From Oceanicoccus sp. KOV_DT_Chl (GTDB taxonomy: Bacteria; Pseudomonadota; Gammaproteobacteria; Pseudomonadales; Dasaniaceae), in contig NZ_FQLF01000002.1 in NCBI RefSeq assembly GCF_900120175.1, positions 1,860,001 to 1,924,000 on the forward strand: DNA of 64,000 bases, given 5' to 3'. The position numbers and the translations under genes are program-made. This document shows, piece by piece, positions 16,959-56,384 of the stretch (positions are counted from its first letter, which is position 1; every line of letters starts with the position of its first letter). The notes below the pieces were generated by a model, which saw nothing but the letters and a program-made list of their open reading frames with translations, was not told the DNA's origin and did no database searches.

Positions 16959-18748
16959 ATGAATCGTAATACCAGTGATTGGAAGGATAAGTATCTGGAC
17001 GCGCTTGACGAACAGGAGAAGCGGGATCGTCAATTCAAACAAATGATGACGCTACTGACCAAAGGCATTATTCGAATCAGCATGGTGGCTGAAGGGATAG
17101 ATGGACAGCTAGATAAGCAATTGGCGGGGATGCGCCAAATGTTTCGTGATGGCAGTCCGTCGCGGCGAGATTTAAATACCGTCATTGATGCTTTGGAGGG
17201 CCAGGTTAAACGGATTGATACGGTTAAAACTGAGCGTGCCAAAGTCATAGCGTCGGCTTTTCAATCCCTGGTGTCGCAATTACAAAGTTTGAAGCCTGAA
17301 AAAGAAGCGGCGCAACAATTAAATCAACTTGGTAAAGTGATCAAAATACGCAGCGGGAAAATTCAGGAATATTCAGCGCTGATAAATGATTATGTCAGTG
17401 TGCAACAAGAAGTATTGAACGAGCGAAATATTAAGCGGGTAAGCAAACCCTTTTGGCATCAGTGGTCAGCAGAAAAAAACCTTGCTGATGAAAAAGAACC
17501 GGTGGTGAAGAACGGAAAAAAAATAAGTGACAAAGATGAAAATAATAAAGCTATTCAGGTAGTAGAAAAAAAATCGTCAAAAGAAACCTCAGCAGAAAAA
17601 ATTAATGATGGATTAGACCTTGCTGATCAGGTGGTAGCACCTCGCGCTGAAATTAATGCCGACGCAATGGGTGAAGAGCCTGCGTTTTCCCGATTAAATC
17701 AAGCAATATGCGAAGTATTGGATGAACTTCTCCAGCAAATAGAAGCGCCGCCAATGGCCAAGGAGAATTATCAAGCCGCCAAAAGACAAATTGAGAAAGG
17801 TTTAAATTGGTATGAATTGGTTCCTACTTTAGAAGACATTAGTATCGTTGTTGTATCGGCCTTTCATAATAATCAAAAAGATTTTGAAACATTCTTAAAC
17901 CAGTTAAATGATCGCTTGTCGCAAGCATTTGAATTTATTAGTGCCTCGGGCAATTACAGGGGGAGGGATTTAATGCCGGCCGCGAGCTAAATGAATCTAT
18001 GCGCGAGCAATTTAGCGCTATTCAGCAGAGTGTAGAAGCCGCCACCGAACTTGATCAACTGAAATCGGCAGTGAGTACGCGTTTAGAACAAGTCGTCGCG
18101 TTGATGGATAAACACCAATCCGGCGAGGTGTTGCGCGAACAGAGTCTTTCTGAACAATTGGATGCCTTGGTTGCCCGAGTCAAAAATATGGAAGCTGATT
18201 CTGCCCAGGCTGAGGAGCGAATAGAAGAGCAGCGTCAAAAAGCACTGCGGGATGTGTTGACCCAACTGCCCAATCGGGAAGCGTATAACCAACGTTTGGA
18301 GCAGGAGTGCGAGCGTTGGCAGCGTTATGATCGACCCTTAACCATGGCAGTTTGCGATGTAGATCATTTTAAACGAGTCAATGATACCTACGGTCATTTG
18401 GCAGGTGATAAGGTGTTACGCATTATTGCTAAAACTTTACGTAAGCGCTTACGTAAAACAGATTTTATCGCCCGTTTTGGTGGTGAGGAGTTTGTCGTAC
18501 TGATGCCAGAAACCGAGCAAGCGTCTGCGCTCAAGGTGGTCGAGGGCGTCAGGGAGGCTATTGCCAGTTGCCCTTTTCATTTCAAAGAAAAACCAGTGAC
18601 CATTACCATGTCTTTTGGCGTTTCAACCTTTAGTGGTGAAGATAATGGCGAGGCGGTCTTCGCGCGCTGTGATAAGGCGTTATATCAGGCCAAGGAGCAG
18701 GGGCGTAATCAGAGCGTGGTGGCCGGACAGCCAGTGATCGAATTGTAA
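16959..18748 (+). CDS. GGDEF diguanylate cyclase, frameshifted in this sequence
   Basis: Makes cyclic di-GMP. The long N-terminal region (to about residue 425) has no membrane helix and is mainly predicted coiled coil. The C-terminal GGDEF domain starts at DVLTQLPNREAYNQRL and has the active site RFGGEEF. An RxxD inhibitory site (RKTD) lies five residues before GGEEF, so product feedback is likely. As written the frame stops at 17990. One extra G in the G-rich stretch 17959-17967 joins it in frame to the rest (FNAGRELNESMREQF), giving 596 residues. In Pseudomonas a diguanylate cyclase also follows dsbA. About 640 bp downstream lies a probable c-di-GMP riboswitch. Confidence 0.88.
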
Positions 18749-19383
18749 TAGTTCATCATTTCAGGCGTTCTCATCGGCTTAAGTCGCCGTTAGATAAAAG
18801 CCAAGCTTTAAAATTGATTGCTCACAGTGCAGCCCGGGGCCCACAATATATAGTGGTTAGTTAGTAATTCGATACAATATAAAGCTCGTCGAAAATGAGT
18901 GCACCATAAAAAGGCGCCAAGTGTCTCAAAATAAAATAATGTGACGGGAAAATTTACATCTTGGGCGATTGAACAGAGGTCTTGTAGCTTAGGAAGATGG
19001 TTTGTGTCTGTGGAGGGTAATAGTGGGCAGCAATGTGAGTCTAGTGTCTCATTTTGTTCCTCGGCTGTAGGGTGTAATCATGAAAATCACTGCTATTCAT
19101 CACCCGTACCCGCCAGCTGGATCAGTTAGCCTGTTTAAGGCGACGGATTATTTTACACAACGCAACTAATGGCTTGTAGTTTGTGCGACCTGAAGATGAG
19201 ACAGCTGCCTAAGTTATTGATTACTAATGTCTAATAGTTTGTTGGCATCAATATTGGATAGTGTACGAGGCAATAATGATTTAGTAGCGGTTTTTTGACA
19301 CTCATGCCAGTAGCTGCATTCATTGGCTGAGTAACAAAATTATTAAATCATTAATAAACGTTTGAAACTTCTTAAATAACAAT
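18749..19383. other. Long intergenic region before the riboswitch
   Basis: About 635 bp without a convincing gene; short open frames here lack ribosome sites and family-like sequence. It must hold the promoter of the riboswitch transcript. TTGGCATCAATATTGG at 19242-19257 resembles a sigma-54 site with correct spacing but has GG where GC is required, so I do not call it. I see no terminator right after the diguanylate cyclase. Confidence 0.5.
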
Positions 19384-19532
19384 AAGGAAGGCAAGCGCCA
19401 AACCCATCGTGAGGTGGGGACGGAAAGCCTACGGGTCTTTCGAGTAATGTTAAACAGGGATGACAGTGTTCTGCTGCTATTGAACACTACAAGGAATTTA
19501 CTCATAAAGACGGCCGGGTTGTTACCCTTCTT
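19384..19532 (+). promoter_or_regulatory. Probable c-di-GMP-I (GEMM) riboswitch aptamer
   Basis: The core resembles GEMM-I: AAACCC, then a stem CCCATC/GGTGGG (19403-19408 with 19413-19418) capped by the GNRA loop GTGA, then GACGGAAAGCC and ACGGGTC. A second structured arm follows, closed by GAGTAA (19442-19447) and TTACTC (19498-19503), with an inner AGTGTTC/GAACACT stem. It ends in GGCCGGGTT, as in the 3' part of GEMM. P1 would be AAGGAAGG (19384-19391) with CCTTCTT (19526-19532). Differences from consensus are GACGG for GACGC and extra bases before AAACC. It lies in the 5' leader of a VPLPA-CTERM gene and downstream of a diguanylate cyclase. Confidence 0.72.
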
Positions 19533-19547
19533 CGAGAAACCTCGAGG
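19530..19547 (+). promoter_or_regulatory. Hairpin hiding the ribosome-binding site
   Basis: CTTCGAG (19530-19536) pairs with CTCGAGG (19541-19547) around AAAC. The right arm contains the GAGG Shine-Dalgarno, eight bases before ATG 19556. The left arm overlaps the 3' strand of the proposed riboswitch P1, so ligand-bound P1 and this hairpin exclude each other. Confidence 0.65.
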
Positions 19548-19555
19548 AATATAAA

Positions 19556-20137
19556 ATGAAAAAATTAAATACTGTTCTTGCTGCTACTGCTTTGGCTCTT
19601 GTAGCTGCTCAATCTCAAGCTGCTTTGTTTGACGTATCTGTGGCTATTTCTGGTACTACTAGCGGTGCTGCCATTGGTGGTGCAACTGGTTCAACTACTG
19701 GCTCTGGTTCAGGTACTTTAGATACCGGCACTGGCGTGATTAGCTTTTCATCCGTCTCTAATGCCACAACTCCTGTGACAAATGCTTTTGTATACGGTGT
19801 TGCTACTGTTGATACTATCGGATTGAGTTCAAGTACAACTGCTACCGACTGTGTTGAAAATGGTGGTCTTTTACCGACATGCCCTAATGTACCACTAAAT
19901 GTTAGTGGCCCAATTGGTAACCTTAGTGAAGTATACGGTGGTTCAGCTACTGGTACTGGCGATATCTTTACTCTGGTAGCTGTTGGTGACCAAGGTTCAG
20001 GTATTACTTCTAACAACTCTTACACCTTTACTATTGGTGCCGAGCAGGTTTCTGAAGTGCCAGTACCTGCAGCTGCTTGGTTGTTTGGTTCTGCAATCGT
20101 AGGCTTGGCTGGTATCGGTCGTAAGCGTAAGGCTTAA
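19556..20137 (+). CDS. VPLPA-CTERM (PEP-CTERM-type) secreted protein
   Basis: A 193-residue exported protein with a signal peptide ending at SQAA (about residue 22). The mature part is low-complexity, rich in Gly, Ser and Thr. The C-terminal sorting signal is VPVPAAAWLFGSAIVGLAG followed by the basic GRKRKA, which fits the VPLPA-CTERM class handled by XrtD-type exosortases; such an enzyme is at 54792. Cys99 and Cys109 frame an ENGGLLPTCPN module that recurs in the lipoprotein at 26509. Synthesis is probably under a c-di-GMP riboswitch. The function is unknown; a matrix or surface role is inferred. Confidence 0.9.
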   Translation: MKKLNTVLAATALALVAAQSQAALFDVSVAISGTTSGAAIGGATGSTTGSGSGTLDTGTGVISFSSVSNATTPVTNAFVYGVATVDTIGLSSSTTATDCVENGGLLPTCPNVPLNVSGPIGNLSEVYGGSATGTGDIFTLVAVGDQGSGITSNNSYTFTIGAEQVSEVPVPAAAWLFGSAIVGLAGIGRKRKA

Positions 20138-20190
20138 TAGCTTTGTTAGCTAAATAACAGGTGTCTGGATTTATTTTCCATAACCTGTGA

Positions 20191-20224
20191 AAAAACCCTG
20201 CTAGAAATAGCAGGGTTTTTTTTT
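20191..20224 (+). terminator. Intrinsic terminator after the VPLPA-CTERM gene
   Basis: AAAAACCCTGCTA (20191-20203) and TAGCAGGGTTTTT (20208-20220) form a perfect stem with a GAAA loop and run into more T. It makes the VPLPA-CTERM gene a single-gene transcript. Confidence 0.93.
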
Positions 20225-20401
20225 GCAAATGATAATTAAAGCTGACATGTTAAATATTAACTGGGCTAAAGATAATTAGTTGAATTATTGCAGAAGTGGA
20301 AGGTATTTGCGGTGGCGTAAGTTAAATGAATATAGTTACTATATAGCTTGTATATAATAAGTCACATAGTAGTGTCGCTCTCAGTGTAGTTGTTATTGTT
20401 G

Positions 20402-21955
20402 ATGAAAATTAAAAAAAATAAAATTAAAAAAATACAGAATAAACGAGTTGTATTTAAGCCGGCGCCTAATCAACAAGCAGTACAGGTTATCTACGCGGAA
20501 GCGTTACAGTATGTTTTTGATACATCATCAAAAACCAGTGATTGGAATCTTGTTGAATTTCAGGCTCTACAGCTTGCTGAACAACTGCCTAAAGAAAATA
20601 TAATCCAGCTAATTTTAATTGAGGCGTATTGTAATAGTTTTCGGTTTGATAAGGCTGAAAAGCTGATAGATCCTTTGCTTAAATTAGCCCGGCTGGATAC
20701 TGACTCCGCTGTCGTCATTGCCAAGTATTATCGGGCCAGCAATCAGCCAGAGAAAGCGATTGATGTATTAGAAAAAGGTATTGTCCGCAGGCCTGATAGT
20801 GTTAGATTGTTAGATGCGCTGGGGTCCTGTTATAACTTGATGGGGAAAAAAGAGCGCGCTTTAGAAGTCTACAATAAAGTTACCAAAATAGATTCGGCAT
20901 TTAGTCAGTCGTATTGGCATCGGGCGCACATTCAAAAGAACAGTTTTCCCCAGCGTGACCTGGATAGTATTAAAAAACTATTGGAAAGTAAGTCTTTAAC
21001 AGAAATAGACAGGGCTAGACTTTATTTTGCGCTGGCTTGGGGTTATAGCAATGAGCCAGAACAACATTTTAATGAATTACATAAAGCGAATAAGATCATA
21101 AGTGCTTTGCGTCCTTGGTCTATTGATGCCGAGCGTATAAAGTCTGAGAAAGTTAGGCAGTTTGTCACGAGAGATATGTTAGAGGCGTGCAAAGGCTCCG
21201 GGTATTCTGATAAAGCGCCAATAATTATCGCATCAATACCTCGTTCTGGCACTACGCTTCTGGAACAAATTTTGGGTGCCCATACTGCGACTTATGCCAT
21301 CGGTGAGTCACAGCCTTTTTACCAGGCAATTAACGATACAGCATTTGAATTTAGAGCAAATGAAAATTATTGGGGTTGGTGTCAGCCACAGGAATTTAAC
21401 AAGTACTTTCCTGCACTCTATAAATCTTATTGTAATCATGGGTTCGTGCAAAAATCGGGGGATAAAAAGCCAGTAGATAAGTCGATGAATATGATGCATT
21501 ACCTGGGTATATATTTAGCAGTTTTTCCTGATGCTAAAGTAATTCAGTTAATGCGAGATCCAATGGATGCGTGTTTGTCTGCATATCAACTTTATTTTCC
21601 TAATGGAAATGAGTACACATTTTGTCAAAAGTCATTTATTCAATACTATAAATTATTTGAAGAAGTAATGGCTTACTGGAAAGATTTATTTCCGGAAAAT
21701 ATTTTATTGGTTGATTATGAATCTATCGTCGAAGACCCTCGTGGTATGACAGAGAGAATATTGGGTTTTTGTGGGCTTGAATGGGAAGAGAATTGCCTGA
21801 ATTATCATAGTACCGAGCAAATAATTAGGACTGCTAGTCATATGCAAGTAAAACAACCCGTTTATAAATCGGCTGTGGCTAGATGGAAAAAATATGCGCC
21901 ATATCTTCAAGAGGCTCTGGAAGAGCTAAATACTCCGCTAATACCTGAAGGGTAA
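20402..21955 (+). CDS. TPR-containing sulfotransferase, first of a tandem pair
   Basis: A 517-residue protein without a signal peptide. A Lys-rich N-terminus is followed by tetratricopeptide-like helical repeats (about residues 30-210) and a PAPS-dependent sulfotransferase domain (about 270-510). The 5'-phosphosulfate loop IPRSGTTLLEQIL is near residue 280 and the 3'-phosphate region QLMRDPMDACLSAYQLYF near 385. The conserved C-terminal segment MQVKQPVYKSAVARWKKY is shared with the next gene. ATG 20402 is preferred over TTG codons at 20390-20399; the ribosome site is weak. The substrate is unknown: polysaccharide, or a tyrosine in a protein substrate presented by the TPR part, are both possible. 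Confidence 0.88.
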   Translation: MKIKKNKIKKIQNKRVVFKPAPNQQAVQVIYAEALQYVFDTSSKTSDWNLVEFQALQLAEQLPKENIIQLILIEAYCNSFRFDKAEKLIDPLLKLARLDTDSAVVIAKYYRASNQPEKAIDVLEKGIVRRPDSVRLLDALGSCYNLMGKKERALEVYNKVTKIDSAFSQSYWHRAHIQKNSFPQRDLDSIKKLLESKSLTEIDRARLYFALAWGYSNEPEQHFNELHKANKIISALRPWSIDAERIKSEKVRQFVTRDMLEACKGSGYSDKAPIIIASIPRSGTTLLEQILGAHTATYAIGESQPFYQAINDTAFEFRANENYWGWCQPQEFNKYFPALYKSYCNHGFVQKSGDKKPVDKSMNMMHYLGIYLAVFPDAKVIQLMRDPMDACLSAYQLYFPNGNEYTFCQKSFIQYYKLFEEVMAYWKDLFPENILLVDYESIVEDPRGMTERILGFCGLEWEENCLNYHSTEQIIRTASHMQVKQPVYKSAVARWKKYAPYLQEALEELNTPLIPEG

Positions 21956-21960
21956 GACTT

Positions 21961-23499
21961 TTGAAAAAGAAAAAGAAAAGCGCCAAGAGCAATCCCAAGC
22001 ATAATATTCAGCTTAAGCCAAACGAAGCAGTTATATGCCTTCCAGTTGAAGATATTGTAAGTAGAGCTAATCATAGTTATCAGTCAGGGAAGTTTTTAAT
22101 GGCAGAATATGTGCTTCAGCAGCTTATTGACACTATAAAACCGCTTCCGCTAAGTGCGAGTATATTATTATTAGATGTCTTCAAGGCTTCTGCAAAGCTT
22201 GATAAGGCATGTGATTTTGCAAAAAAATTATTGATTGATTATCCAGAAGATCCGAAAGTATTGCGTGCCAGTGCTAGTGTGCAACAATTGTTGGGCAATA
22301 GTGCTAATAGTCTGGGTTTACTAGAAAAGGCACTGGAGATTAATAAAGATCTTTGTCCGACGTACAATCAGTTAGGCCATTTGTATATATCTATGTCTGA
22401 TAAGATTCAGGCAGAAAAATCCTTTAAAAAAGCCATTAACAGCGGGCCAAACAGGATCGGTGGGTATTGGGGATTAGTGCGTGTTTTAGGGGGGGATACA
22501 CCTGAAAAATATATTTTGGCGGTAAAAAAATTAGAAAATAAACTTAAAGGCAGGCATGAAGAATTAGCTTATTTGAACTTTACCTTAGCAAAATATTATG
22601 AGGAAAGAGATAGTAAAAAAAGTTTTACTTTTTTTAAAAAAGGGAATTTAGCGATAGGGAAAATTCGGCCATGGAATTTTGAGCAGGAAAGTGCACGAGT
22701 GGAAAAACTAATAAATTTCTTTAGTGCCGATCGTTTAAAAGAACTTCATGCTAAGCATCACTCAGATTATAAAGCCGTATTTATCGCATCAATGCCACGC
22801 TCTGGAACTACATTATTAGGCCAAATACTATCCGCGCATAGCCAATTACAATCAGTTGGAGAGAGTGATGCATTTGATCGGGCAGTAAGTGCTGTTTCAG
22901 TCTCTATGGGGCGTTATCCGGATGTCTATAGCTGGACGCCGATGTCTATTTTTGAAACGATGTTTAAAAAAATTGATGAAGCGTTTATTAATAGCTATTT
23001 GATTAAGTCCGCTAAAGGTTGCGTTGTAGATAAATCAATGAGTAACTCATTTCATATTGGTTTGATTTTGAGCATATACCCTCAAGCTCGTGTGATCTGG
23101 CTGCAAAGAGACCCTCTGGATACAGTTCTGTCTTGCTATCAACAACTATTTGATAAAGGCAATGCATTTGCTTTTGACCTGTCGAATTTAGCGCATTATT
23201 ACCAGTTGAATAATAAAATCATGAAGCACTGGAGTTTACTATTCCCCAAGCAAATTTTAATGGTTAATTATGAAGCTCTGGTTTCAGATCAAGAGGCGGA
23301 AGCAAAAAGAATTATTGACTTTATCGGATTAGAATGGGAGCAAGGCTGTTTGAAGTTTTATGAAAGCAATGAGGTTATTAATACGGCAAGTGACCTCCAG
23401 GTAAAACAGCCTATCTATAATTCTTCCGTTGGGAAGTGGCGGCCTTATGCCAAAGATCTTGAAGAAGCGGCATTAATTCTTGGGGTTGATGTAACTTGA
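21961..23499 (+). CDS. TPR-containing sulfotransferase, second of a tandem pair
   Basis: A 512-residue paralog of the preceding protein with the same layout: Lys-rich start, TPR-like repeats to about residue 210, then a sulfotransferase domain with MPRSGTTLLGQILSAHS near residue 279, the 3'-phosphate region WLQRDPLDTVLSCYQQLF and the C-terminal LQVKQPIYNSSVGKWRPY. The start appears to be TTG 21961, with GAAGGG eight bases upstream and only 5 bp after the previous stop, so the two are co-transcribed. The copies have diverged strongly, which suggests distinct substrates or a heteromer, not a recent duplication. Confidence 0.87.
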   Translation: MKKKKKSAKSNPKHNIQLKPNEAVICLPVEDIVSRANHSYQSGKFLMAEYVLQQLIDTIKPLPLSASILLLDVFKASAKLDKACDFAKKLLIDYPEDPKVLRASASVQQLLGNSANSLGLLEKALEINKDLCPTYNQLGHLYISMSDKIQAEKSFKKAINSGPNRIGGYWGLVRVLGGDTPEKYILAVKKLENKLKGRHEELAYLNFTLAKYYEERDSKKSFTFFKKGNLAIGKIRPWNFEQESARVEKLINFFSADRLKELHAKHHSDYKAVFIASMPRSGTTLLGQILSAHSQLQSVGESDAFDRAVSAVSVSMGRYPDVYSWTPMSIFETMFKKIDEAFINSYLIKSAKGCVVDKSMSNSFHIGLILSIYPQARVIWLQRDPLDTVLSCYQQLFDKGNAFAFDLSNLAHYYQLNNKIMKHWSLLFPKQILMVNYEALVSDQEAEAKRIIDFIGLEWEQGCLKFYESNEVINTASDLQVKQPIYNSSVGKWRPYAKDLEEAALILGVDVT

Positions 23500-23845: not shown

Positions 23846-26424
23846 ATGAAGCGGTCTTTTAGCCGGCAGCTGTCGGTCCCTCATCGTTTTTTAAATTCAG
23901 CAGTTGTTATCCCAGCTATCTTCTCGGTTTTTTATGTTGCGCCTGTATTTGCACAGGACTCCAAGGGAGGGTTTGCAATCGAAGAAGTGGTTGTAACCGC
24001 TCGTAAACGAGAGGAATCCATGCAAGAGGTTCCTGTGGCGGTGTCGGCTTTTTCTGCAGAGGGTTTGAAATCATTAGGTATTACCAATGTTAAGGATATG
24101 GAAGGCATCGTGCCAGGCTTGAATATGGGTGGCGGTGGTAATGGCGCCAAAGGCGATGCAAGTCCTTATATTCGGGGTATCGGTCAGCGAGAAACAAAAG
24201 TCACAGTTGATAGTGCCGTTGCTACTTATCTTGACGGCATCTACTTGTCGCGTTCGGCGGGCTCAACTTTGGACGCGCTTGATGTGCAAAGTATGCAAGT
24301 GTTACGGGCCCACAGGGTACTTTATTTGGCAAAAATACTACCGGCGGCGCCATTGTAATTACCACGGTAAAGCCAGGCGCTGACTTGGGTGGTCATCTGG
24401 ATGTCACTTACGGAAATTATGGTCGTCAAAATGCCAGAGCGACCGTAAATATTCCTTTAATTGATAATACGTTATATACCCGCGTTACCTTGGCAAGTAC
24501 TCGCCGTGATGGTTTATATGAAAACGTCATTGATGGCACCGCCTGGAATGATGAAGACCGTCTTGCCGGTATCGTTCAAGTGCGCTGGGATGCGTCTGAG
24601 GATTTGGTCGCTGACTTATTGGTCTCTGCTACCAAGACCAGACAGACTCCTCGCGGTCAGAAGTGTGAGTTTTTTGGTCCGGAATTTGGCTTTAATGGTA
24701 AGGCGCCCCTTGAGGCTATTTACGATTCCGAGGCTGCTGTTACAGCTCAACAAGAATGTGAGAATAGCGGTATAAATTTAGAGTTGGACGAATTTCGTAG
24801 TGAGCTTAATGCGCAGTCAGATATTTTTGAACAGGGGCGCTATGAAGTTGATACTAATTTGGCAGGCTTAACGTTGTCCTGGGGTCTGGGAGAAGCTTTA
24901 GGCTTTGAAGACTTGAACATTAAAAGTATTACGGGTTTTCGCCGTACTCAGTTGAGTGCTGATGAAGATCTAGATGGAAGCTCTGCAGGTCTTACAGGCA
25001 GGGTTGCCCCTGAGGATAATGTTACTGATCAGTACAGCCAGGAGTTTCAATTTATTGGTACTGCCATGGATGGTCGAATGAATGTGACCTTGGGTCTTTA
25101 TGCTTTTCAGGAAAAAACGGACGATGATTGGTTGCAATCGTATGCTGGGCTGGTTGAAGGTTCATCACAGCCAAATAGCTTGTTGTTAGCACAGTCGCAA
25201 TTAACGGAGCGTAAAACTGAAAATGAAGCCTGGGCCGTTTTTTCTCAAGTCGGTTTTGATATTACTGAAAATCTTGAATTAACACTGGGCCTTCGTTACA
25301 CCGATGAAACCCGACGTACCGATTATCAGGAAGCAGAAGTTTATTTACCGAGTATTGGTAATGGGGATTTTTGTCCCGGAGGCGGCTGCAGTACCAAAAT
25401 TGGCTCAGGACAGCTACATCTGTTTTCGGCATCTGGCTTCACGCCTTTCAATAGCTGGCAGTATGGCTTTGATGCTAACGCCAATGGAAATTTAGAGCTA
25501 CGTGAATTGGGGAATTTTGGTCAGGACAGTGCCGAGCGTTCAGATGACGATTGGACGCCAAGTGTGAGTTTGAAATATCTGGTAGATGACGGCCTTCGAG
25601 ATCTCTTGTCAATCGATGATGGAATGATTTTCTTCACCTATAGCGAAGGCTTTCGTTCAGGCGGTGTTGTGGTTGCCAATGGTGATTTCGACAATAATGG
25701 CCTGAAAGATATGAGCCAGTTTGAGCCAGAGTATGTAAAGAACTATGAAATAGGTCTCAAGCTTGAAGCATTTGATAAGACCTTGCGTGCAAACTTCGCA
25801 ACGTTTTTTACTGACTATGAGGATATTCAAGTAACGGCTATTGTGCCCGACCGTATCGGTATTCCTTTGCCTGCAGTTGAAAATGCCGGTAAGGCAGAAA
25901 TTAAAGGTGCCGAGGCAGAGATTACTTATGTGCCTTTTGATAGCTTGCGTTTTACCACCAGTATTGCCTATACAGATGGCGATTATTTAGAGTACTCCGT
26001 TGATACGGCTGACTTGGTTGGCAATGTAACCGTTGTTGATCGGTCTGATGAGCCTATGCCACGTATAGCGCCCTGGACTGCATTTTTGGCAGTGGACTAT
26101 TTCATATTTACAGATAACTGGGGGACGTTTGCGCCGTCAGTAAATGTTCGCTACACCGATAAAATTTATGGCGGTTTCGATCGTGCAGGGTTTTTAGTGG
26201 CTGATGAGGTTACCTCACCGGAGACTCACTTTGTTGATGTGCGCTTAACATGGAGTTTGCCAGACGATCGCACGACTATTGCATTTTGGGGTAAAAATGT
26301 AGAGAACAACGATGATTACACTAATGGTGGTGTGCCACTAATTAGTGTTAACAGAAGCACTGGTACCGTTTATGCGGACCCTCGCACTTATGGTGTCGAT
26401 ATTTCTTATGTATTTGGTGATTAA
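23846..26424 (+). CDS. TonB-dependent outer-membrane receptor, frameshifted in this sequence
   Basis: Energy-dependent outer-membrane transporter. The signal peptide ends at VFAQ (about residue 37). A TonB-box-like EEVVVTARKR follows, then the plug and a 22-strand-type barrel ending in YGVDISYVFGD. The early frame runs VLRAHRVL to a stop at 24358. One extra G in GGG at 24306-24308 restores the plug motif RGPQGTLFGKNTTGGAI and joins the rest, giving 859 residues. It resembles the large TonB receptor group of Sphingomonas-like and marine bacteria, whose ligands are mostly unknown. Neighbours are TPR-sulfotransferases upstream and a lipoprotein downstream, so the ligand may be a sulfated compound; this is inference. 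Confidence 0.88.
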
Positions 26425-54791: not shown

Positions 54792-56384
54792 ATGAGTCGT
54801 AACTCGTCGGTTGAGTCACAACCAAACCCCTCCATTTTGTGGATTTTGCTATTGCTGTCCTTGGCCTTTTTGGGGTTGATTTTCGAGAGTGGTTTAGCAG
54901 AAATGGTGAAGGACTGGGAGTTGGATGAATATAGCCATGGCTATATGATCCCTATGGTTGCACTGTATATTATCTGGCAAAAACAGCAACAACTTCCCGC
55001 TGTGACCCAGAGTGGCGCATGGCTTGGGGTATTGGGTACCTTGCTAGGCTTGATGGCGTTTTTTTTGGGTGAAATGGCGACTGTATATGAAGTGGTACAG
55101 TATGGTTTTTTACTTTGTGTAGCCAGTGTATTTTTATCCTTTTTTGGTTGGCGGCCCATGCTAATTGTTTGGGTGGCATTTGCTTACCTTATCTTTATGG
55201 TGCCCTTACCTCAGTTTGTTTATAAAGCACTCTCCTCTGAATTACAGCTTATTTCATCGTCACTGGGTGTTTACGTTATTCGGTTGTTTGATATCAGTGT
55301 ATACCTTGAAGGTAATGTAATTGATTTAGGCTCCTATCAATTACAAGTGGTAGAGGCTTGTAGTGGTCTTCGTTACTTATTTCCGTTGATGAGTTTTGGG
55401 TTTTTAATCGCCTATTTATTTAAAGCGCCGTTTTGGCAGCGCGCTTTGCTGTTTCTATCAACTGTGCCTATCACCGTGCTGATGAATAGTTTCCGGATTG
55501 GTGTCATCGGGGTCACGGTAGAATATTGGGGTATTGAAATGGCTGAAGGGTTCTTACATGACTTTGAAGGTTGGGTTGTGTTTATGGGCTGTTTGGGCGT
55601 GCTGGCTGTCGAAATGATGATCTTGCATAAATTGTCCAGGTCAACTTTACCGCTATGGGATCGTGTGGATTTGGATATTCCGGAAAATATCATCAAGCTA
55701 TCAGATTTTAATATTGGCTGGAAAACCCAGCGCCCTTTTATTGCAAGTTTAATTTTAATATCTGTAGCGTTACTAGGCACGCAATTCTTGGAGTCACGAG
55801 AAGAAATTGCGCCTGCGCGGACAGAATTCAAAAATTTTCCTTTATATAATCATAAGTGGCTGGGCCGGGAAGGCTCTATTGAAGATAATGTTTTGGGCGC
55901 ATTAAAACTCACAGATTATCTGATGGCAGATTACAAAATTAAATCCAGTCCATTGCCGGTGAATTTTTATATTGCCTACTACCAATCACAGCGGCAGGGT
56001 GCCGCAATACATTCACCAAGAACGTGTATTCCTGGCGGTGGTTGGGAGTTTGACGGCCTTAGCCAGAAGATAATTCCTGATGTTAAGCATATGTCTGGTG
56101 TTCCACTTGAGGTTAACCGGGTATTAATACGCAAGGATCAATCAGCACAAATCGTGTATTACTGGTTTGAGCAGCGTGGCAGAAATATTACCAATGAATA
56201 TGAGGCTAAGTGGTATGTTTTCTGGGACTCGTTAATGGATAATAGAACGGATGGCGCCTTGGTAAGGGTTGTGGTACCCGTACCGGATATAGCCAACATT
56301 GATAAATCTGAGCAGTTAGGGATTAAGTTTATTCAGGATTTCTATCCGTTAATACCGGATTATATTCCGGGTAAAAAACTGTAA
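54792..56384 (+). CDS. xrtD: Exosortase fused to EpsI domain (XrtD type)
   Basis: Membrane transpeptidase that cleaves the C-terminal sorting signal of PEP-CTERM-type proteins. It is 530 residues. The N-terminal part has about eight helices and the catalytic triad Cys190 (VVEACSGLRYLF), Arg235 (MNSFRIGVIG) and His256 (GFLHDFEGW). The C-terminal 200 residues after a further helix form an EpsI domain (HSPRTCIPGGGWEF). Exosortase-EpsI fusions are the form called XrtD, specific for VPLPA-CTERM signals, which agrees with the VPVPA proteins at 19556 and 49857. The EpsI part is thought to act in the linked polysaccharide system. Confidence 0.93.
   Translation: MSRNSSVESQPNPSILWILLLLSLAFLGLIFESGLAEMVKDWELDEYSHGYMIPMVALYIIWQKQQQLPAVTQSGAWLGVLGTLLGLMAFFLGEMATVYEVVQYGFLLCVASVFLSFFGWRPMLIVWVAFAYLIFMVPLPQFVYKALSSELQLISSSLGVYVIRLFDISVYLEGNVIDLGSYQLQVVEACSGLRYLFPLMSFGFLIAYLFKAPFWQRALLFLSTVPITVLMNSFRIGVIGVTVEYWGIEMAEGFLHDFEGWVVFMGCLGVLAVEMMILHKLSRSTLPLWDRVDLDIPENIIKLSDFNIGWKTQRPFIASLILISVALLGTQFLESREEIAPARTEFKNFPLYNHKWLGREGSIEDNVLGALKLTDYLMADYKIKSSPLPVNFYIAYYQSQRQGAAIHSPRTCIPGGGWEFDGLSQKIIPDVKHMSGVPLEVNRVLIRKDQSAQIVYYWFEQRGRNITNEYEAKWYVFWDSLMDNRTDGALVRVVVPVPDIANIDKSEQLGIKFIQDFYPLIPDYIPGKKL

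Follow-up and report, generated by a model that had tools for sequence, protein, structure and literature searches.

A probable c-di-GMP-I riboswitch preceding a VPLPA-CTERM surface-protein gene in Oceanicoccus sp. KOV_DT_Chl

A 193-residue protein with a VPLPA-CTERM sorting tail is encoded in Oceanicoccus sp. KOV_DT_Chl behind a structured leader, and the question that this locus raises is whether the leader is a c-di-GMP-I (GEMM-I) riboswitch acting as a translational ON switch, as a sequence-only reading had proposed. We addressed it by covariance searches, folding and comparison with relatives, taking as the window the whole stretch of 64,000 nucleotides in which the locus lies. The proposal, binding by the window copy included, is in our judgement rather probable. 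The homology, the pocket letters, the mutually exclusive pairings and the layout common to the relatives are the computed part of the mechanism. The elements of the leader and its gene, with Vc2 numbering for the contact positions, are the following.

19385-19391, forward strand: P1 5' strand AGGAAGG, pairing with 19526-19532 (seven pairs, one of them G-U)
19392-19396, forward strand: J1/2 linker CAAGC, five bases, from the sequence
19397, forward strand: G20 equivalent, a ligand contact by homology (motif parse)
19398-19423, forward strand: P2 arm (covariance alignment and motif parse)
19424, forward strand: A47 equivalent (motif parse)
19425-19520, forward strand: P3, a long arm (cmscan alignment and folds)
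19521-19523, forward strand: additional GUU, after P3 and ahead of the R-C92 of J3/1 (alignment with eight genus relatives)
19525, forward strand: C92 equivalent in the preferred register (comparison with relatives)
19526-19532, forward strand: P1 3' strand CCUUCUU, doubling as left arm of the Shine-Dalgarno hairpin
19528-19549, forward strand: hairpin hiding the Shine-Dalgarno, 9 bp, loop AAAC (-11.5 kcal/mol, z -3.72)
19544-19548, forward strand: Shine-Dalgarno GAGGA, 7 bases before the ATG, from the sequence
19556-20137, forward strand: regulated gene, 193-residue protein with VPLPA-CTERM sorting tail (TIGR03370)

Family membership of the leader

The GEMM-I-like core described by the sequence-only reading, which had pointed to a covariance search as the way to check it, is borne out: the named motifs lie where they had been placed, and the leader matches two models of the class. 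A search of 271 bases with a lowered threshold gave a match to RF03167 (c-di-GMP-I-GGC) at 19388-19530 (39.8 bits, E 3.2e-8; E 1.4e-7 against the whole genome), and the whole-genome search with RF01051 (c-di-GMP-I, GEMM-I) gave 33.1 bits (E 2e-4). Both E-values are significant, although both scores stay under the Rfam gathering cut-offs (59 for RF03167 and 35 for RF01051). For this reason the default Rfam scan of the 64-kb window, which returned tRNA only, missed the leader, and default cut-offs lose at least this one member of the lineage. In the lowered-threshold scan, the program suppressed two weaker matches that overlap this one and belong to families of its clan, and the sole other family was algC (E 5.2, opposite strand). 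Among the 14 well-known genomes used as control set, neither model gave a match over its cut-off; RF01051 reached E<=10 in eight of them, E<=0.01 in one and E<=1e-4 in none, and RF03167 reached E<=1 in five.

Elsewhere in the same genome RF01051 exceeds its cut-off at six further places, besides one chance-level match of 19.2 bits; together with the window copy they make the seven GEMM-I RNAs considered below. The window copy has the lowest RF01051 score of the seven and the second lowest by RF03167 (39.8 vs 37.7). The relatives compared are labelled G000b, G000e, G000f and G000c (L115, L110, L117 and L116, copies in the window's genome), G005a, G005b and G005c (L022, L111 and L112) and G002a (L113). 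The same-genus leader G005b shares 72% DNA identity with the window leader over query positions 4-204 of 206 and by itself reaches 50.1 bits with RF01051, above the cut-off; the low score of the window copy is therefore ascribed to divergence, insertion and a long P3 arm, and not to chance. Judged by its sequence, the leader is very probably a divergent homologue of the c-di-GMP-I class. The whole leader folds more stably than most shuffled versions (z -2.66, with 2 of 200 shuffles equally stable), and the aptamer part (19385-19532) has unremarkable stability (z -1.14, 28 of 200 shuffles). Since the aptamer alone is not unusually stable, the GEMM-I case rests on the family match and not on folding energy.

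Some other matches of these searches deserve mention in their own right. Weak RF01051 matches (26.6-27.6 bits) in three same-genus genomes (L077, L080 and L082) have 3' ends that are identical in two cases and similar in the third, and precede a 90-residue protein, HU-like by eye; they are probably not riboswitches, and possibly represent a conserved leader of another kind. GEMM-I copies with the inverted pair discussed below also occur in tandem, four in a row before a single gene in L164 (titled Desulfosudis), three in L131 and two in L167, and L307 and L345 have two neighbouring RF01051 matches each.

Ligand pocket and its deviations

The leader resembles GEMM-I RNAs, Vc2 and Vc1 included, in its three-helix layout, its GNRA-capped P2, its G20, A47 and C44, its GGUU 3' core and the P1 closing the junction. 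The P2 arm comprises an inverted pair, C21-G46 (19398-19423), then C22-G45 (19399-19422) and a six-pair stem (19403-19418) capped by a GUGA loop of GNRA type (19409-19412). P3 holds 71 inserted bases between GUC 19435-19437 and GAC 19509-19511, and the 3' core GGCCGGGUU spans 19512-19520. In the accessible parts of two structural and functional studies, G20, A47 and C92 are given as the c-di-GMP contacts of GEMM-I (PMC4744006), A47 is stacked between the two guanines of the ligand, and Vc2 is described with an interhelical C44-G83 pair and a G14-C93 pair at the top of P1 (PMC3764141). The window copy keeps the contact letters G20 (G19397) and A47 (A19424). The C44 equivalent is C19421 and the G83 place is occupied by G19513; the predicted counterparts of the two Vc2 pairs would be C19421-G19513 and G19391-C19526.

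Compared with RF01051, the window differs in having C-G and not G-C at pair 21-46, an extra GUU before R-C92 and the 71 bases inserted in P3. RF03167 is the best-scoring Rfam model for the leader, yet its consensus GACGCGAA has G at position 47, whereas the window has A in GACGGAAA; the G at this position, which we take to be the feature naming the c-di-GMP-I-GGC variant, is absent (A19424).

The sequence-only reading had regarded GACGG and some extra bases before AAACC as possible marks of a variant or of an altered ligand preference, and neither suggestion is supported. GACGG is the 3' half of a compensated C21-G46 inversion (GCC...GACGG) that is widespread, and the supposed extra bases, GCGCC, are the linker end, G20 and the inverted pair; the linker from P1 to G20 has five bases, as does the G14-to-G20 spacing of Vc2 in the numbering used in the available text of PMC3764141. 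At the level of the order, with 64 sequences (63 covariance matches and the window, three weaker matches having been set aside), pair 21-46 is G-C in 31, C-G in 27 and another combination in 6; the six odd combinations all come from parses scoring <=11.5, and some parses among the 31 and the 27 are poor as well. For the class, where 111 of the 113 non-own matches were examined and seven parses under score 12 dropped, the 104 sequences divide into 83 G-C, 20 C-G and one T-G. A pattern scan that matched at least 115 stretches located the inverted form at no fewer than 87 sites in the 80 loci fetched, among the matches listed, whose record titles span many phyla and many metagenome bins. As letters 21 and 46 change together and the inversion is found across many phyla, it gives no evidence of a new ligand, and GACGG was rejected as a sign of one. 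The inversion could affect affinity, since a simulation study, in the portion available, counts G21 and C46 among the residues that add to the binding energy (PMC9049102).

The more serious deviation, overlooked in the first reading, is the GUU at 19521-19523, which lies between the P3 strand GGGUU and the junction-closing ACCC and is a better ground than GACGG for doubting a response to ligand. It is absent from all eight aligned genus relatives, where the aligner draws a five-column gap. In a census of J3/1, plain YY-R-C ends were found in 160 of 174 other GEMM-I members; the remaining 14, inspected by eye, consist for the most part of substitutions (position 92 being U in at least five), besides one match that stops early and a few irregular ends, among which G647:C1:12497-12582 might also hold extra bases. 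Position 92 of the window is C19525 if GUU is an insertion and U19522 if it is not. We prefer the insertion register because G000b and G005b have exactly the ACCCUUC of the window. From the sequence the register is ambiguous (C92 with an insertion, or U92 with displaced letters), and this constitutes the main doubt on ligand binding; inserted next to the pocket, GUU may weaken it. Furthermore, the contact letters do not guarantee tight binding, as Vc1 keeps all three of them and binds c-di-GMP much more weakly than Vc2, according to the text of PMC4744006 that was accessible.

The same ambiguity opens the way to a GEMM-I RNA whose preference has shifted to another cyclic dinucleotide or to a linear relative, through U at 92 or through the enlarged junction. 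If the GGGUUG-U of the window were set in register with the GGGUUG-C of other members, it would give U92, a letter that by eye at least five of the 174 members also have, and changes at 20 and 92 are reported to alter both affinity and ligand (PMC9049102, in the sections available). This shift is nevertheless very unlikely in our view, given that in some relatives of the genus ACCCUUC follows P3 without intervening bases, which makes an insertion in the window the likelier register, and that the C21-G46 inversion is compensated and common. Position 20 also speaks against it: the c-AMP-GMP (cGAMP) GEMM variant has A there, whereas the window keeps G (G19397).

Shine-Dalgarno hairpin and predicted switching

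We return to the preferred reading, a c-di-GMP-responsive ON switch, and to its expression platform. The hairpin that had been placed at 19530-19547 does hide the Shine-Dalgarno, its extent being slightly longer than had been thought (arms 19528-19536 and 19541-19549); in folds of the 31 bases 19526-19556, 1 of 200 shuffles was as stable. The overlap of the P1 3' strand (19526-19532) with the left arm was correctly recognized from the start: the bases are shared, and since the hairpin uses 19528-19536, it and the full P1 are mutually exclusive. GAGGA is unpaired with a probability of 0.01 in the free ensemble, and enforcing P1 raises its mean exposure from 0.01 to 0.79 with a transcript start at 19380 or 19385. 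With starts at 19331 or 19363 the exposure under enforced P1 is only 0.28, because CUUCUU 19368-19373 can then re-cover the Shine-Dalgarno. Enforcing P2 alone leaves it unchanged at 0.01. When the 11 bases 19533-19543 were shuffled 200 times, the Shine-Dalgarno was likewise hidden in 27 cases.

The layout recurs in the genus. Exposure rises in seven of seven leaders when P1, P2 and pairs 21-46 and 22-45 are enforced, the weakest riser being G005a, in which only two P1 pairs could be enforced (from 0.22 to 0.24 when 25 upstream bases are included, and from 0.35 to 0.52 when 2 are). Beyond the two G-C pairs at its apex, P1 is interrupted by mismatches in four of the seven; in two further relatives, G002a and G000c, the P1 3' strand can be recognized by eye as complementary to the Shine-Dalgarno (CCUC/GAGG and CCUA/UAGG, respectively). 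These results bear on the direction of control. Either an OFF switch, or an action of c-di-GMP through transcript stability or Rho access and not ribosome access, would find some room in the four-pair remnant of the hairpin that persists under enforced P1 and in the upstream CUUCUU, which if transcribed can still cover the Shine-Dalgarno; as exposure goes up and not down in all seven leaders with the aptamer enforced, we hold this to be extremely improbable. A site search of 19000-20500 found no terminator-like site, which favours the preferred reading, and no promoter-like site on the strand of the riboswitch, which speaks against it.

A different concern is energetic. The free ensemble gives P1 a probability of no more than 0.0014, and its formation costs 6-8 kcal/mol, or 11 with a start at 19331, which the ligand must repay. 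The strongly OFF form of the free fold is one of the observations that would fit a decaying GEMM-I copy, in which GUU has spoiled the pocket and what remains is a fixed Shine-Dalgarno hairpin leader without ligand response; the lowest RF01051 score among the seven copies of the genome, the lack of GUU in the eight aligned relatives and the fact that riboswitches lead five other VPLPA genes of this genome would fit it too. Neutral decay would not favour the persistence of G20, A47 and C44, nor that of the GUGA loop and of the bases shared by P1 and the hairpin, and the downstream gene has an intact reading frame with a normal sorting tail at its end. We consider decay an unlikely explanation, though the likeliest of the alternatives.

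In the preferred reading, the P1 3' strand would be held, without ligand, in the hairpin that buries the Shine-Dalgarno, and translation would be low. Binding of c-di-GMP at the three-way junction would hold P1 (19385-19391 with 19526-19532), cutting the hairpin to about four pairs and freeing most of the Shine-Dalgarno. High c-di-GMP would thus result in more VPLPA-CTERM protein, where the identity of the ligand, binding despite GUU and the direction of control are those that we infer. Vc1 of Vibrio cholerae precedes gbpA, and the window RNA likewise leads a gene whose product is of the secreted or surface type. In the available text of PMC4744006, this GEMM-I RNA raises expression with c-di-GMP by a mechanism described as unknown, its authors see no anti-Shine-Dalgarno, and changing the A47 equivalent did not lower GbpA. 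Within one open-licence library, in papers on exosortase, PEP-CTERM or VPLPA together with riboswitches, including the accessible parts of PMC12530212, PMC10599522 and PMC3495685, we found no description of an expression platform in which the P1 3' strand hides the Shine-Dalgarno of PEP/VPLPA-CTERM genes.

VPLPA-CTERM genes and genomic context

The target gene had been recognized as encoding a VPLPA-CTERM protein, and TIGR03370 agrees, with 28.9 bits in a six-frame search (cut-off 25.35) and 25.0 bits, just under the cut-off, on the whole protein, whose C-terminal end is VPVPAAAWLFGSAIVGLAGIGRKRKA. The genome contains 27 such tails over the cut-off (51 at E<=0.1). Six of its seven GEMM-I RNAs stand just before VPLPA-CTERM genes, all six among those 27, with 500-899 bases from the end of the riboswitch to the tail motif; the seventh precedes a 165-residue protein without the tail. 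A rough chance estimate for this proximity was set aside, because its bound of 700 bases falls short of one observed distance (899). With 6 of 27 tails behind a GEMM-I RNA, c-di-GMP would have a direct link to several surface proteins sorted by an exosortase, and this offers a testable explanation for their possible switching-on together with matrix production. When the genome contigs were searched for proteins related to the regulated one, none of 160 pattern matches was confirmed; the protein following the G005b leader, the sole one compared, is 39% identical to it.

The pairing itself is not new, since c-di-GMP riboswitches are listed in Methylophaga nitratireducenticrescens GP59 beside one VPLPA-CTERM and three PEP-CTERM genes (PMC12530212, in the part available). 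As in the window, those genes lie near exopolysaccharide genes; the GP59 riboswitches are annotated, with data at the transcript level only, three of the four being higher in biofilm and one in planktonic culture (same source, same part). The window RNA probably adds to the known c-di-GMP-I class and brings no new mechanism.

In the order-level set, all 22 sequences that precede a PEP/VPLPA-CTERM-like product have the inverted pair C-G (the products were labelled partly by eye, and 13 of these sequences, the window copy among them, belong to the window's own genus) vs 5 of 42 others, two of these five being doubtful parses. At class level, a tail pattern flags 6 of 20 C-G sequences vs 1 of 83 G-C (Fisher p 1.7e-4), and three further C-G rows, outside this count, are PEP-CTERM-like by eye; such p-values overstate independence, because the sequences share common ancestry. 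The idea that C21-G46 universally marks PEP-CTERM control was discarded: outside the class the association does not hold up, the tail being found in 16 of 71 closed ORFs among the matches listed with a crude pattern that misses some tails seen by eye (e.g., L127 and L143), and across phyla, again among the matches listed, the inverted form also precedes many other genes. A narrower idea is that in these Gammaproteobacteria the inverted-pair GEMM-I RNAs make up a lineage devoted to PEP/VPLPA-CTERM proteins, with the P1 3' strand as anti-Shine-Dalgarno and an enlarged J3/1 in the window that retunes affinity or ligand choice; we regard it as improbable.

Two neighbouring functions of the window are relevant to the proposed circuit.

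17999-18748, forward strand: GGDEF diguanylate cyclase, upstream of the leader (PF00990, 160.3 bits)
54792-56384, forward strand: VPLPA-CTERM-specific exosortase XrtD (TIGR04152, 572.5 bits, cut-off 400)

The product of the regulated gene would presumably be sorted or anchored by XrtD, which is surrounded by genes with matches to families of polysaccharide export, chain length, nucleotide sugars and glycosyltransferases; contig C5 has another match to the exosortase family. The upstream GGDEF gene had no tblastn match at E<=1e-3 within the 10 kb surrounding the G005b leader, and a TPR-sulfotransferase relative was found on the opposite strand, near that riboswitch and its VPLPA gene. In the window itself, two consecutive TPR-sulfotransferase genes (20390-23499) lie directly downstream of the VPLPA gene. 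Beyond them, the ORF at 23846-24358 has a match to TonB-dependent receptors that is confined to their N-terminal part, and is followed, 26 bases further and in another frame, by the ORF at 24385-26424; the two look like the halves of a single, disrupted receptor gene, or like the result of a sequencing error.
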